This document shows, one piece after another, positions 24,451 through 29,743 of a stretch of 44,001 bases of DNA (positions are counted from its first letter, which is position 1; each line of letters starts with the position of its first letter). The DNA comes from Acidimicrobiales bacterium. Lineage in GTDB: Bacteria > Actinomycetota > Acidimicrobiia > Acidimicrobiales > JABEUL01. The DNA is taken from contig DAHXLF010000004.1 in NCBI GenBank assembly GCA_027371755.1, positions 1 through 44,001 on the forward strand, in the 5' to 3' direction. The translations under genes were made by a program, and so were the position numbers. Under the pieces are notes generated by a model, which was not told where the DNA came from, did no database searches, and saw only the letters and a list, made by a program, of their open reading frames with translations.

Positions 24451-25005
24451 TTAAAGCCATTCGGGAAGTTGTTCCAATAAATATTGGCTAACTTCCAAAG
24501 CCTTGTCAAAAATCTCGCACATAAGCTCTTCGCCGGCTAATATTTTTGTAAGTTTTACTTCAATTCTTGCGACAATTGTAAGTCTACGCTCAGATCCATC
24601 CGTAGGTGAGCTAAAAGAATCGATTGCGCTTACTTCAATAGGAAGCTCAATTCCGCCGATTCCTGCCAACTTTACCGCAAGCTGTAATAAATCCGGTGGA
24701 TTTTGAAGCGCCGGAATGGACCATGTAAAATTTAGAGGAAATGCATGCTCGCTAAAAGGATCGTCATCGTCGTCAAGTTCTATAATAAAGTCTTCGAAGT
24801 TAAGCAGTGTCCTAGGATCAACTTCAAGTGATAGGTGAAGATCCAACGGACCGCCGCATCCTTCCTCAGGATGTAGGTCGACTTCCCATGATTGTGACAG
24901 GGAGTAGGTCTCTACAAAGTGCCGCTCATCGTGCACATGAAATCCATGATCTACCGAGTGATCCTTCAGTTCGGTGATGTAACCCGCTACGTCGATGACA
25001 GCCAT
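24451..25005 (-). CDS. Conserved-looking hypothetical protein, acidic
   Basis: 184-aa ORF, no recognised domain; compact beta-rich sequence. Confidence 0.65.
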   Translation of the reverse strand: MAVIDVAGYITELKDHSVDHGFHVHDERHFVETYSLSQSWEVDLHPEEGCGGPLDLHLSLEVDPRTLLNFEDFIIELDDDDDPFSEHAFPLNFTWSIPALQNPPDLLQLAVKLAGIGGIELPIEVSAIDSFSSPTDGSERRLTIVARIEVKLTKILAGEELMCEIFDKALEVSQYLLEQLPEWL

Positions 25006-25368: not shown

Positions 25369-26688
25369 ATGAATTATTCGTCCTCTGAGCTTCTAGAATG
25401 CTGCCGCAGGGTTTCACGTAAAATTAATGAAAACATATCATCTCTGGAAGATTTAAAACGAATCGGTACCAGACAGGGGCAATATTTTTTGGATATAATT
25501 GCCGATAATGTCGGTCTTGAGATATTTGACGAATATAACATCGGGGTTTTGAGTGAGGAATCTGGGGTTACAAAAAGTGATTCGGATTATGTCGCCATTT
25601 TAGATCCCGTCGATGGTTCTACGAACGCATCAAACAAGATACCGTTGTTTTGCACGAGTATTTTGATTTTATTTAAAAACATACCAGTATTTGGTTTTAT
25701 CGCAGGACACAGATTCGATTTTGAGCTCCACGGATCAAAAGATTTGGGAGTTTATTTAAACGGAGATAAGGTAGATGATCTACCGCAAAATCAGCTCAGT
25801 GAAACGGTGGTGAGTTTTTCAGGTTATCCCATGGAGTGGGGGGGGTGGAAGCAGAGCAGATCACTTGGATCTGCGGCTTTAGAAATTGCATTCGTGGCTA
25901 CGGGGTCGTTGGGGGCATACTTTGACGCCAGTTTGGATGGATTGGCAATATGGGATTACGGAGCCGGAATATTTATTGCAGGTTTGCTTGGTTGCAGCGT
26001 GAAGGAACTCATGGGAAGGGATTTAAACGTCTATGACTTTAATTGCAGGCGACATCCAATAGTCGGTACCGATTCGGAGATAACAGACGACCTTATAAAT
26101 CGCCTGCAAAAGACACGCGCTGTCCAGCGAGACGCTGAAATTTTAAGATTGCTTAAGACACGTATTAAAGTAACACAAAACGATACCGAACTCAAAACCG
26201 CATGGAAGATTTGTGACGCCATTGAAAGCGGGGAGCAGATATTTTCCGCCGAAGATTCTAATTTACACCTAACCGGTTCGGCGATCATCGTATCTGACAA
26301 GGGAATACTTCTACACGAACACTTAAAACTTAAAAAATGGGTTCAACCGGGCGGTCATTTAGATTTTTTGGAGACTCCTTATGATGCAGCTAAGCGTGAG
26401 GCCCTTGAAGAGACGGGTTTAGAGATGATTGACTTGACTCCGGATCCAATATTGCTTAATGTGGCTGAAGTTGCCGGTCCCGACGGACATTGCCATCTTG
26501 ATATGAGATTTTTATTTTCAACTGCAGGAGGTCAACCTTCTCCAGCGATAGGTGAAAGTCAAAAAGTGGAGTGGTTTTCTTATGACAAAGCACTTACTAC
26601 TATTGACAATTCAAACAAGGATGCTTTGATCGCAGCAAAACACTATTTGGAGGCTAACTTGCAAAATATTATGTTGAAGGCATTATGA
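25369..26688 (+). CDS. Inositol monophosphatase-like domain fused to Nudix hydrolase domain
   Basis: IMPase motifs EESG, DPVDGSTNA, WDYGAG; Nudix box GHLDFLETPYDAAKREALEETGL matches GX5EX7REUXEEXGU. Confidence 0.9.
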   Translation: MNYSSSELLECCRRVSRKINENISSLEDLKRIGTRQGQYFLDIIADNVGLEIFDEYNIGVLSEESGVTKSDSDYVAILDPVDGSTNASNKIPLFCTSILILFKNIPVFGFIAGHRFDFELHGSKDLGVYLNGDKVDDLPQNQLSETVVSFSGYPMEWGGWKQSRSLGSAALEIAFVATGSLGAYFDASLDGLAIWDYGAGIFIAGLLGCSVKELMGRDLNVYDFNCRRHPIVGTDSEITDDLINRLQKTRAVQRDAEILRLLKTRIKVTQNDTELKTAWKICDAIESGEQIFSAEDSNLHLTGSAIIVSDKGILLHEHLKLKKWVQPGGHLDFLETPYDAAKREALEETGLEMIDLTPDPILLNVAEVAGPDGHCHLDMRFLFSTAGGQPSPAIGESQKVEWFSYDKALTTIDNSNKDALIAAKHYLEANLQNIMLKAL

Positions 26689-27401
26689 TGGAATTAAATT
26701 TTGACAATCTATTGGAACTGCAGTCTATAGATTTAGAGCGTGATGCTATAAGACATGAGATGCATGAAATCAGCAATAGTGCGGATGTAAAGGAACTGGA
26801 GTCAAAGTTAAATCGAATCAATGTCGATATCCAAGAGTTAAAATCAAACCATGACTTGTTGGCACTCAAAATTGAACAGATTGAAATCAGTTCGGTGAAA
26901 ATAAAATCAAAGATTGATGAGCTAAACGACAGGCTTTATAAGCAAGAAGGACTCGGGTCTAAAGATTTACAGGTAATGGCCAAAGAGATTGAGCACCAGA
27001 AAGTTTTGTTGGGTGATCTGGAAGACGAGGAATTGAACTTGTTGGATCAATTCGAAGTGTTACAGAAGATACTTTCCGATAACGAAGACAACAAACGAGT
27101 TATTTTGGACCAATTGAATAGTATAAAACATAACCTATCTGAACAGTCGGAGAAACTAACATCGAGCCTGGATGAACTTAATCGAAAGTACGATTTAATA
27201 GAACAAAATATCGACCACGACATTTTAGAAACTTATCTAAAGCTTCGCGGCAGTGGCAAACAGGTTGCAGTCGGCAAACTGATTACCAATAAATGTACCG
27301 GTTGCAGTGTTGATATTGCACAAGCCGAAGTAAATAGGATAAAAGCTGCCAAAGACCAATTAAACTTTTGCGAACAGTGCGGTTGTATATTGGCATTTTA
27401 A
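26685..27401 (+). CDS. Coiled-coil protein with C-terminal C4-type zinc ribbon
   Basis: Heptad-rich N-terminal 3/4, C-terminal CTGC...CEQCG. Confidence 0.85.
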   Translation: MMELNFDNLLELQSIDLERDAIRHEMHEISNSADVKELESKLNRINVDIQELKSNHDLLALKIEQIEISSVKIKSKIDELNDRLYKQEGLGSKDLQVMAKEIEHQKVLLGDLEDEELNLLDQFEVLQKILSDNEDNKRVILDQLNSIKHNLSEQSEKLTSSLDELNRKYDLIEQNIDHDILETYLKLRGSGKQVAVGKLITNKCTGCSVDIAQAEVNRIKAAKDQLNFCEQCGCILAF

Positions 27402-27422
27402 TATTGACAGCTTATTAAAAGA

Positions 27423-27760
27423 GACGAGTTGGCCTGTAGGCGGGGTTCTGTCGGGTAGTATTACCCGGGTGATTATCCATCTAAGCGGTCTACCAGAAGT
27501 TAAAGACAGGACATCAAACTTCTATATGACCTTGCTCCAAGTGGGGTTTACCCAGCCGACGAAGTCACCTCCGCCGCTGGTGCGCTCTTACCGCACCTTT
27601 TCACATTCACCTGTGAAGTAATTGTGTTACTTCCATCGGCTACCTATTCTCTGTGGCACTTTCCTTCAAGTCGCCTTGACTGGCCGTTAACCAGCACCTT
27701 AGTCCTGCGGAGCCCCGACCTTCCTCAGCTGAAAAGCCGCAATCACCCGGCCAACTCGTC
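27423..27760 (-). ncRNA. rnpB: RNase P RNA (bacterial type A)
   Basis: Minus strand: GACGAGTTGGCCGGGTGATT...GAGGAAGGTCGGGGCTCC...GTGCCACAGAGA...GGTGCGGTAAGAGCGCACC...GTAAACCCC...AGATGGATAATCACC...ACAGAACCCCGCCTACAGGCCAACTCGTC; ends pair with each other. Confidence 0.95.
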
Positions 27761-27853: not shown

Positions 27854-28216
27854 ATGGAAAGAGAATTGTTTATAAAGATGGTAGCTGCTCTTAAGGAAAG
27901 TAAAGAATTAGATAATGTTTATATTCCTTCGGTTGTGATATTGTCGGATGGCGATAAAAAGGATCGATATGTCAAAAGATTTAAAAAATATGCAATAATC
28001 TATATGAAAATCGATTTAAAATCCGAAGTTAAGATCATAAATGAATTGGTTTTGGGTATTCTTGCAACAAATAGGTTCAACCCTCAAAGTCGAATAAATA
28101 TCCAGATAGCATTGCTTAAAAGTTGTTCTATAATTTTAAATGAACTTAGGTTTGGGCAGGGCTTAACTAATGCTAATTTTGGATTAAGACAAGCCAAGAC
28201 CCATGATGCGGCCTAA
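27854..28216 (+). CDS. Hypothetical protein
   Basis: 120-aa ORF between rnpB and xseA; no recognised domain. Confidence 0.5.
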   Translation: MERELFIKMVAALKESKELDNVYIPSVVILSDGDKKDRYVKRFKKYAIIYMKIDLKSEVKIINELVLGILATNRFNPQSRINIQIALLKSCSIILNELRFGQGLTNANFGLRQAKTHDAA

Positions 28217-28264: not shown

Positions 28265-29743
28265 ATGGTAACGCCGAAAAGCCCGATGAATTTGTTTGAT
28301 GCAATGGGGGAGCAGCCGTTTATTTCCGTAACGGAGTTATTTTCGCGCTTGGAAATCGCTCTTAAGCAGTCTTTTGGTTCGTCAATTTGGATTAAAGGGG
28401 AAATCAGTAATAACGTCACCGAGAAAGGCGGACACTGTTACTTTCAACTTTCTGATCACGATTCTACTTCAGACAATTCGCCTAACGTTAATTGCGTAAT
28501 TTGGTCAAGTAGCTATTCACGGATTAAAAAACAACTGATTCTTAGTAAACTTAGCATCGCCAAAGGGACCGTTATTAAAGTCAATGGTACAGTTAAGTAT
28601 TACCCAAGACGCTCAGAAATACAGTTCCAAATCATCGATTTGGATGTTGCTGGTTTGATTGGCGATATGGCACTAGCTCGGCTTAAGCTGATGGGACAGT
28701 TGGGTAAAGAGGGTCTGCTCAACAAGAATAAGCAAATTCCCATTCCTCTGGTTCCGTTAAAGGTAGCACTAGTCGGTTCGCCCGGTACGCAAGGTTTTCT
28801 TGATTTCATGACGCAGATTAATGCATCGAAATTTAATTTTAAGATTAGGGAATATCCCGTGCCAGTACAGGGACCCGAGACCCCTCCAAAAATTTCAGCA
28901 GTTCTTTCAAGAGAAGATATAAACGAAAATGACATAGTTGTTATTGTTCGAGGCGGAGGTTCGCAAAACGACTTAGCGGCATTCAATACTGAAATCATGG
29001 CTCGGTCGGCCGCAAATTGCTCCATTCCTGTTTTTACCGGGATCGGGCATACTGAAGATATGTCAGTTGTCGATGAAGTAGCCAGCAGATCTTTTATTAC
29101 ACCAACAGAGTGCGGGCAGCAAATTGTAAATATGGTACAACGTTTTTACGATGATTTACATGAAAAATTTAACATGATCTTTACGTTTGTAAATTTTCAA
29201 ATTACGGATAATACGGCTAAATTGGAAAAATTTACAGACAGAATAAATATAGAAGGAACTAAAATAGTAGATTCGTCCAATACTAGTGTAGAATTGCGGA
29301 GGCACAAACTGCAAGATGGTGGCAGGGGAGTTATCGTCGATGCTGAATCTAAAATGATGGTGCTTCGAAACTATCTTATTGGAAGTTCGATAGGCGTTAC
29401 AGTCGAAGCCAACAGAGAGCTAAGGGCAAGAAGCGGGGTTTTGTCATTGCACGCCAATAACTTAATTGAATCAAACAACAGAGAGTTGAGTAATTCTATA
29501 AATTCACTTCTAGTTGGTCAAAATGCAACTTTTAAATCCAAAATGCAGATGTTGGATTCAAAACGTTCCAATCTGTTGGCTTACGATCCCAAAGCTATTT
29601 TAAAGCGTGGTTATGCTGTGGTCAGATCCGAGGCTAAACATGTAGTGAAGTCTGTAACTGGCCTTGATAGAGGTAATACAATTTACACTGAATTTGATGA
29701 CGGTATTGTCAGTTCAAAAATAACAGAGATTGATATGTTCTGA
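28265..29743 (+). CDS. xseA: Exodeoxyribonuclease VII large subunit
   Basis: ISVTELFSRLEIALKQSFGSSIWIKGEISN OB fold; VIVRGGGSQNDLAAFN; GIGHTEDMSVVDEVA. Confidence 0.96.
   Translation: MVTPKSPMNLFDAMGEQPFISVTELFSRLEIALKQSFGSSIWIKGEISNNVTEKGGHCYFQLSDHDSTSDNSPNVNCVIWSSSYSRIKKQLILSKLSIAKGTVIKVNGTVKYYPRRSEIQFQIIDLDVAGLIGDMALARLKLMGQLGKEGLLNKNKQIPIPLVPLKVALVGSPGTQGFLDFMTQINASKFNFKIREYPVPVQGPETPPKISAVLSREDINENDIVVIVRGGGSQNDLAAFNTEIMARSAANCSIPVFTGIGHTEDMSVVDEVASRSFITPTECGQQIVNMVQRFYDDLHEKFNMIFTFVNFQITDNTAKLEKFTDRINIEGTKIVDSSNTSVELRRHKLQDGGRGVIVDAESKMMVLRNYLIGSSIGVTVEANRELRARSGVLSLHANNLIESNNRELSNSINSLLVGQNATFKSKMQMLDSKRSNLLAYDPKAILKRGYAVVRSEAKHVVKSVTGLDRGNTIYTEFDDGIVSSKITEIDMF

Follow-up and report, generated by a model that had tools for sequence, protein, structure and literature searches.

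A full-length RNase P RNA gene with two compensated pairs in P4

The window (the whole 44,001-nucleotide stretch of DNA analysed here) carries an rnpB gene that is very probably the ordinary working RNase P RNA gene of an Acidimicrobiales-type actinobacterium, and the base changes in its P4 helix would represent neutral compensated drift. It belongs to a known family in which it is an unremarkable member, with the sequence usual for its clade; nothing in the comparison points to an enzyme that works in another way, and the comparative interest is modest.

The gene occupies 27421–27758 of the minus strand and matches the class A RNase P RNA model RF00010 (Rfam) at full length, from model position 1 to 367, with 241.7 bits (E 5.1e-79) against a curated gathering score of 100. 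A sequence-only reading had placed it at 27423–27760, which is the correct locus with boundaries 2 bases away from those of Rfam, and the full-length match agrees with its remark that the other conserved blocks are intact. This is the single RF00010 match in the source genome, a draft assembly of 299 contigs and 2.2 Mb that is 82% complete. The partner protein RnpA is encoded on contig C270 in an open frame (PF00825, 55.3 bits, over the cut-off). Judged from its conservation, the RNA is likely to cleave the 5' leaders of pre-tRNAs.

A coiled-coil/zinc-ribbon protein gene (26685–27401) is convergent with rnpB, and xseA (28265–29743) lies near it. We also observed that 25369–26688 on the plus strand encodes one protein combining an inositol-monophosphatase-type domain with a C-terminal NUDIX domain, which has matches around rnpB in the loci of several relatives. 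The open reading frames at 27854–28216 (plus strand, 120 aa) and 24451–25005 (minus strand, 184 aa) have no Pfam match, and the former gave no tblastn match among 147 other loci compared.

Positions in P4 are numbered after E. coli MG1655 rnpB (L179), against which A67 and U69 were checked. Both strands of the helix can be read directly on the minus strand. CR-I with the 5' strand reads GAGGAAGGTCGGGGCTCC (27709–27726, read from 27726 to 27709), where alignment with E. coli rnpB places G67 at 27720, the bulged U69 at 27718 and G71 at 27716. CR-V with the 3' strand, ACAGAACCCCGCCTA, lies at 27437–27451, with C356 at 27442 and C359 at 27439; the minus strand from 27451 reads ACAGAACCCCGCCTACAGG, and the two strands pair at all 8 P4 positions. 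Compared with E. coli rnpB there are four substitutions (A67G, C71G, G356C and U359C), which form two Watson-Crick pairs, G67:C359 for A67:U359 and G71:C356 for C71:G356, while U69 is still bulged between 68:358 and 70:357. The letters quoted in the sequence-only reading are exactly present, and its description of two compensatory changes around a retained bulged U is borne out by the Watson-Crick character of both pairs and by covariation beyond that of shuffled controls (see below). That this is an RNase P RNA with compensatory changes stands; to call it a recoded core helix is an overstatement.

The RF00010 consensus identities A67:U359 and C71:G356 are both replaced by G:C, which is no argument against membership since other full-scoring members of the family differ there too. 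In the usual drawing P4 and P2 cross each other to give a pseudoknot (PMC12974513), and the structure line returned by cmscan draws the P4 columns as unpaired; the covariance model therefore scores P4 as single conserved columns and gives no credit for compensation.

The variant is the standard P4 of Acidimicrobiales

Sequencing or assembly error, or decay into a pseudogene, could be suspected in a draft of this many contigs. The four coordinated changes, however, recur unaltered in independent genomes from the same genus, family and order, the remaining conserved blocks are intact at the score given above, and this is the only rnpB found in the genome. The same variant is carried by L010, an independent genome from this genus, and by at least 118 other contigs, and the P4 of the source genome is identical to that of independent assemblies despite its incompleteness. 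The relatives with the same variant rule this explanation out, in agreement with the sequence-only reading, and its probability is negligible.

An RF00010 match was obtained in 38 of 40 relatives. G71 is present in each of the 30 close-relative loci that were read, every 3' strand located there has C356, and 67 is either G or A; the complete variant is shared by L010 and by every same-family genome with a match. When about 85,000 species genomes were scanned for the exact 18 bases of the 5' strand, at least 118 stretches of other species matched; among the matches listed, the labels are mostly Acidimicrobiales, Acidimicrobiaceae, Microthrix, Aquihabitans or unspecified Actinomycetota. By chance alone, an 18-mer should match about 7.5 times in 257 Gb, both strands included.

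Samples of the class and the phylum show G71 to be general in Acidimicrobiales, combined with G67, A67 or C67, and to extend to further orders of the class (L031, L243) and, elsewhere in the phylum, to two more family groups, f79 and f83. Within the order, L202 is different: it has C71 and, apart from A74:U353, a full canonical P4. The variant is what this order normally has in P4, and it is not peculiar to the source genome. The earlier suggestion of something particular to this RNA is not supported: the variant is common across the clade, which the sequence-only reading had itself named as a finding that would refute its claim, 67:359 and 71:356 covary across Actinomycetota, and independent cases occur in Pseudomonadota for 67 and in Spirochaetota for 71.

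Several other deviations were seen in and next to P4. In two Actinomycetota (L230 of f128 and L235 of f77) the pair 73:354 is A:U instead of G:C, and in L213 it is G:U; in L244 (G048, same class), an RNase P RNA that otherwise scores highly, a C:U mismatch occupies the first P4 pair, 66:360. Just before the 3' P4 strand, several actinobacterial groups have ACAAAA or ACAGGA in CR-V in place of ACAGAA (L037–L039, L212 and L058, L184–L186, L191, L263). Two matching loci carry other phylum labels: L063, labelled Acidobacteria, has the same P4, and for the genome of L167, labelled Acidobacteriota, the phylum search returned Actinomycetota genomes.

Positions 67 and 71 change freely as long as they pair

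We then compared 223 distinct RNase P RNAs, a sample enriched for the variant because one of the scans had selected for it. At 67:359 we counted 148 G:C, 57 A:U and 18 C:G, and at 71:356 167 G:C and 56 C:G, with no mispair at either; all six combinations of these states exist. The pair 74:353 is G:C in 161 RNAs, A:U in 56, C:G in 4 and G:U in 2, while 73:354 is G:C in 220, A:U in 2 and G:U in 1, and 66:360 is A:U in 222 and C:U in 1. The pairs 68:358, 70:357 and 72:355 and the bulged U69 are invariant. The sequence-only reading described P4 as close to invariant in well-known bacterial RNase P RNAs. This needs correcting: within Actinomycetota there is wide variation at 67:359 and 74:353, and several lineages differ at 71:356.

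Across 20 distinct P4 sequences, 99.4% of pairs are standard and the covariation score is 0.476, as compared to 0.136 ± 0.026 for shuffles (0 of 500 reach the observed value); sliding one strand along the other gives no more than 0.083. A tree from which the P4 motifs were left out calls for a minimum of 19 changes at 67 and 8 at 71, all of them compensated; it is weakly resolved, so that both counts are rough. Several events at 71 are nonetheless indicated, since G71 is found in separate taxonomic groups and C71 in L202.

One could imagine that G71:C356 and G67:C359 make up an adaptively recoded catalytic helix, with altered metal binding, substrate choice or protein contacts. The high conservation of C71:G356 elsewhere, as seen in Pseudomonadota (see below), speaks for such a reading, which we nevertheless consider very unlikely: positions 67 and 71 vary independently in six of six combinations, the genome encodes an ordinary RnpA, and L202 has the canonical P4 within the same order, so that the flip at 71 is reversible or dispensable. 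Moreover, no further position of the RNA changes with 71. In an alignment of 125 RNAs no column other than 356 tracks it, which led us to reject a compensating change hidden in some other part of the molecule and implies that the flip requires no visible tertiary partner. The next-ranked columns outside P4 do not follow in independent G71 lineages, and their differences appear to reflect common descent in the order.

Compensated changes in other phyla

Beyond Actinomycetota we sampled Pseudomonadota, Spirochaetota and Bacteroidota. The motif was present in 149 of 249 Pseudomonadota genomes, and among these 149 no G71 was verified, one most likely misbinned contig aside; compensated changes at 67 were found in two, G67:C359 in L260 and C67:G359 in L261. 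Nearly all Spirochaetota matches have C71. The Spirochaetota genome G1226 displays a third Watson-Crick type, U71:A356 (GAGGAAAGTCTGGACTCC ... ACAGAATCCAGCTTA, L265 from 65 and 526), at a pair that is commonly regarded as fixed. Most Bacteroidota matches are canonical. The 71:356 flip is rarer than the change at 67:359, and its clade-wide verification is confined to Actinomycetota.

A number of candidate cases were rejected. The contig PBFS01000001.1 (L170, from G590, a MAG labelled Gammaproteobacteria) carries an Acidimicrobiales-like rnpB, but the genome has a second, canonical rnpB of its own, so that the contig is most likely misbinned. The matches in L147 (Spirochaetes) and L158 (Bacteroidales) have no 3' partner, and canonical rnpB genes lie elsewhere in their genomes. 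An A71 match in G874 was judged to be chance, with canonical rnpB elsewhere in that genome, as was a G71-like Bacteroidota match in G1066, where the same pattern search gives a canonical P4-like match elsewhere. The few G71-like Bacteroidota matches, including those in G1024 and G1161, look like chance matches.

A helix probably required for its geometry

In the E. coli complex three groups hold the active-site metal, namely the A67 and G68 phosphates and O4 of U69 (PMC9433436; compare PMC4919922). The base at 67 is thus no metal ligand, and position 71 lies two positions beyond the bulge; base identity at 67 and 71 is presumably not read. Neutral compensated drift, the simplest reading, would then proceed as follows. 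The two compensated substitutions would have arisen in ancestors of the clade with the A-form helix and the bulged U69 preserved, and would persist because the active site uses the backbone phosphates of 67 and 68 and O4 of U69, not bases 67 and 71. The RNA together with RnpA would remove pre-tRNA 5' leaders by the usual two-metal hydrolysis at P4/J3-4. The pattern, in which 67, 71 and 74 are free but paired while 68, U69, 70 and 72 are fixed, fits a requirement for helix and bulge geometry, with base identity probably used only at the fixed positions; on these comparative grounds we infer that the changes are neutral.

C71:G356 may still carry some selective weight, given its strong conservation in the Pseudomonadota sample. 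It is conceivable, though improbable, that the whole order and a few other actinobacterial lineages use the inverted G71:C356 near U69 in a way that subtly alters metal preference or rate.

P4 is often quoted as near-invariant; here matched changes occur in at least four of the eight pairs, and 68:358, 70:357, 72:355 and U69 are constant. This pattern separates positions that need only pair from positions whose identity is used, and makes natural P4 variants available for testing the metal site. It also has a practical side, as AAGTCCG serves as a fixed P4 search motif (PMC4264200) and exact-motif searches for rnpB miss Acidimicrobiales.

Comparison with known RNase P RNAs

Within the partial coverage of the open-access literature, we found no description of the 71:356 flip or of the Acidimicrobiales P4. 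Two pseudoknots are reported in a published covariation study of RF00010 (PMC7657543). Of these, P6 is the one that the Rfam structure lacks, and the other is presumably P4. The RNA described here has the full length, all conserved regions, U69 and the P4 pairing in common with class A RNase P RNAs of RF00010 such as E. coli M1 RNA, and differs in having G:C at both 67:359 and 71:356 where the E. coli type has A:U and C:G. Actinomycetota of f91 (Streptomyces-size genomes of 7–10 Mb) and others with C67:G359 likewise carry a compensated change at 67:359, although it is C:G rather than G:C and C71:G356 is kept. Finally, natural P4 variation at the last pair has been studied by mutagenesis and activity assays in the Paulinella chromatophore RNase P RNA (PMC4264200); there the variation is a C-U mismatch at the helix end, whereas here Watson-Crick pairs are exchanged inside the helix.
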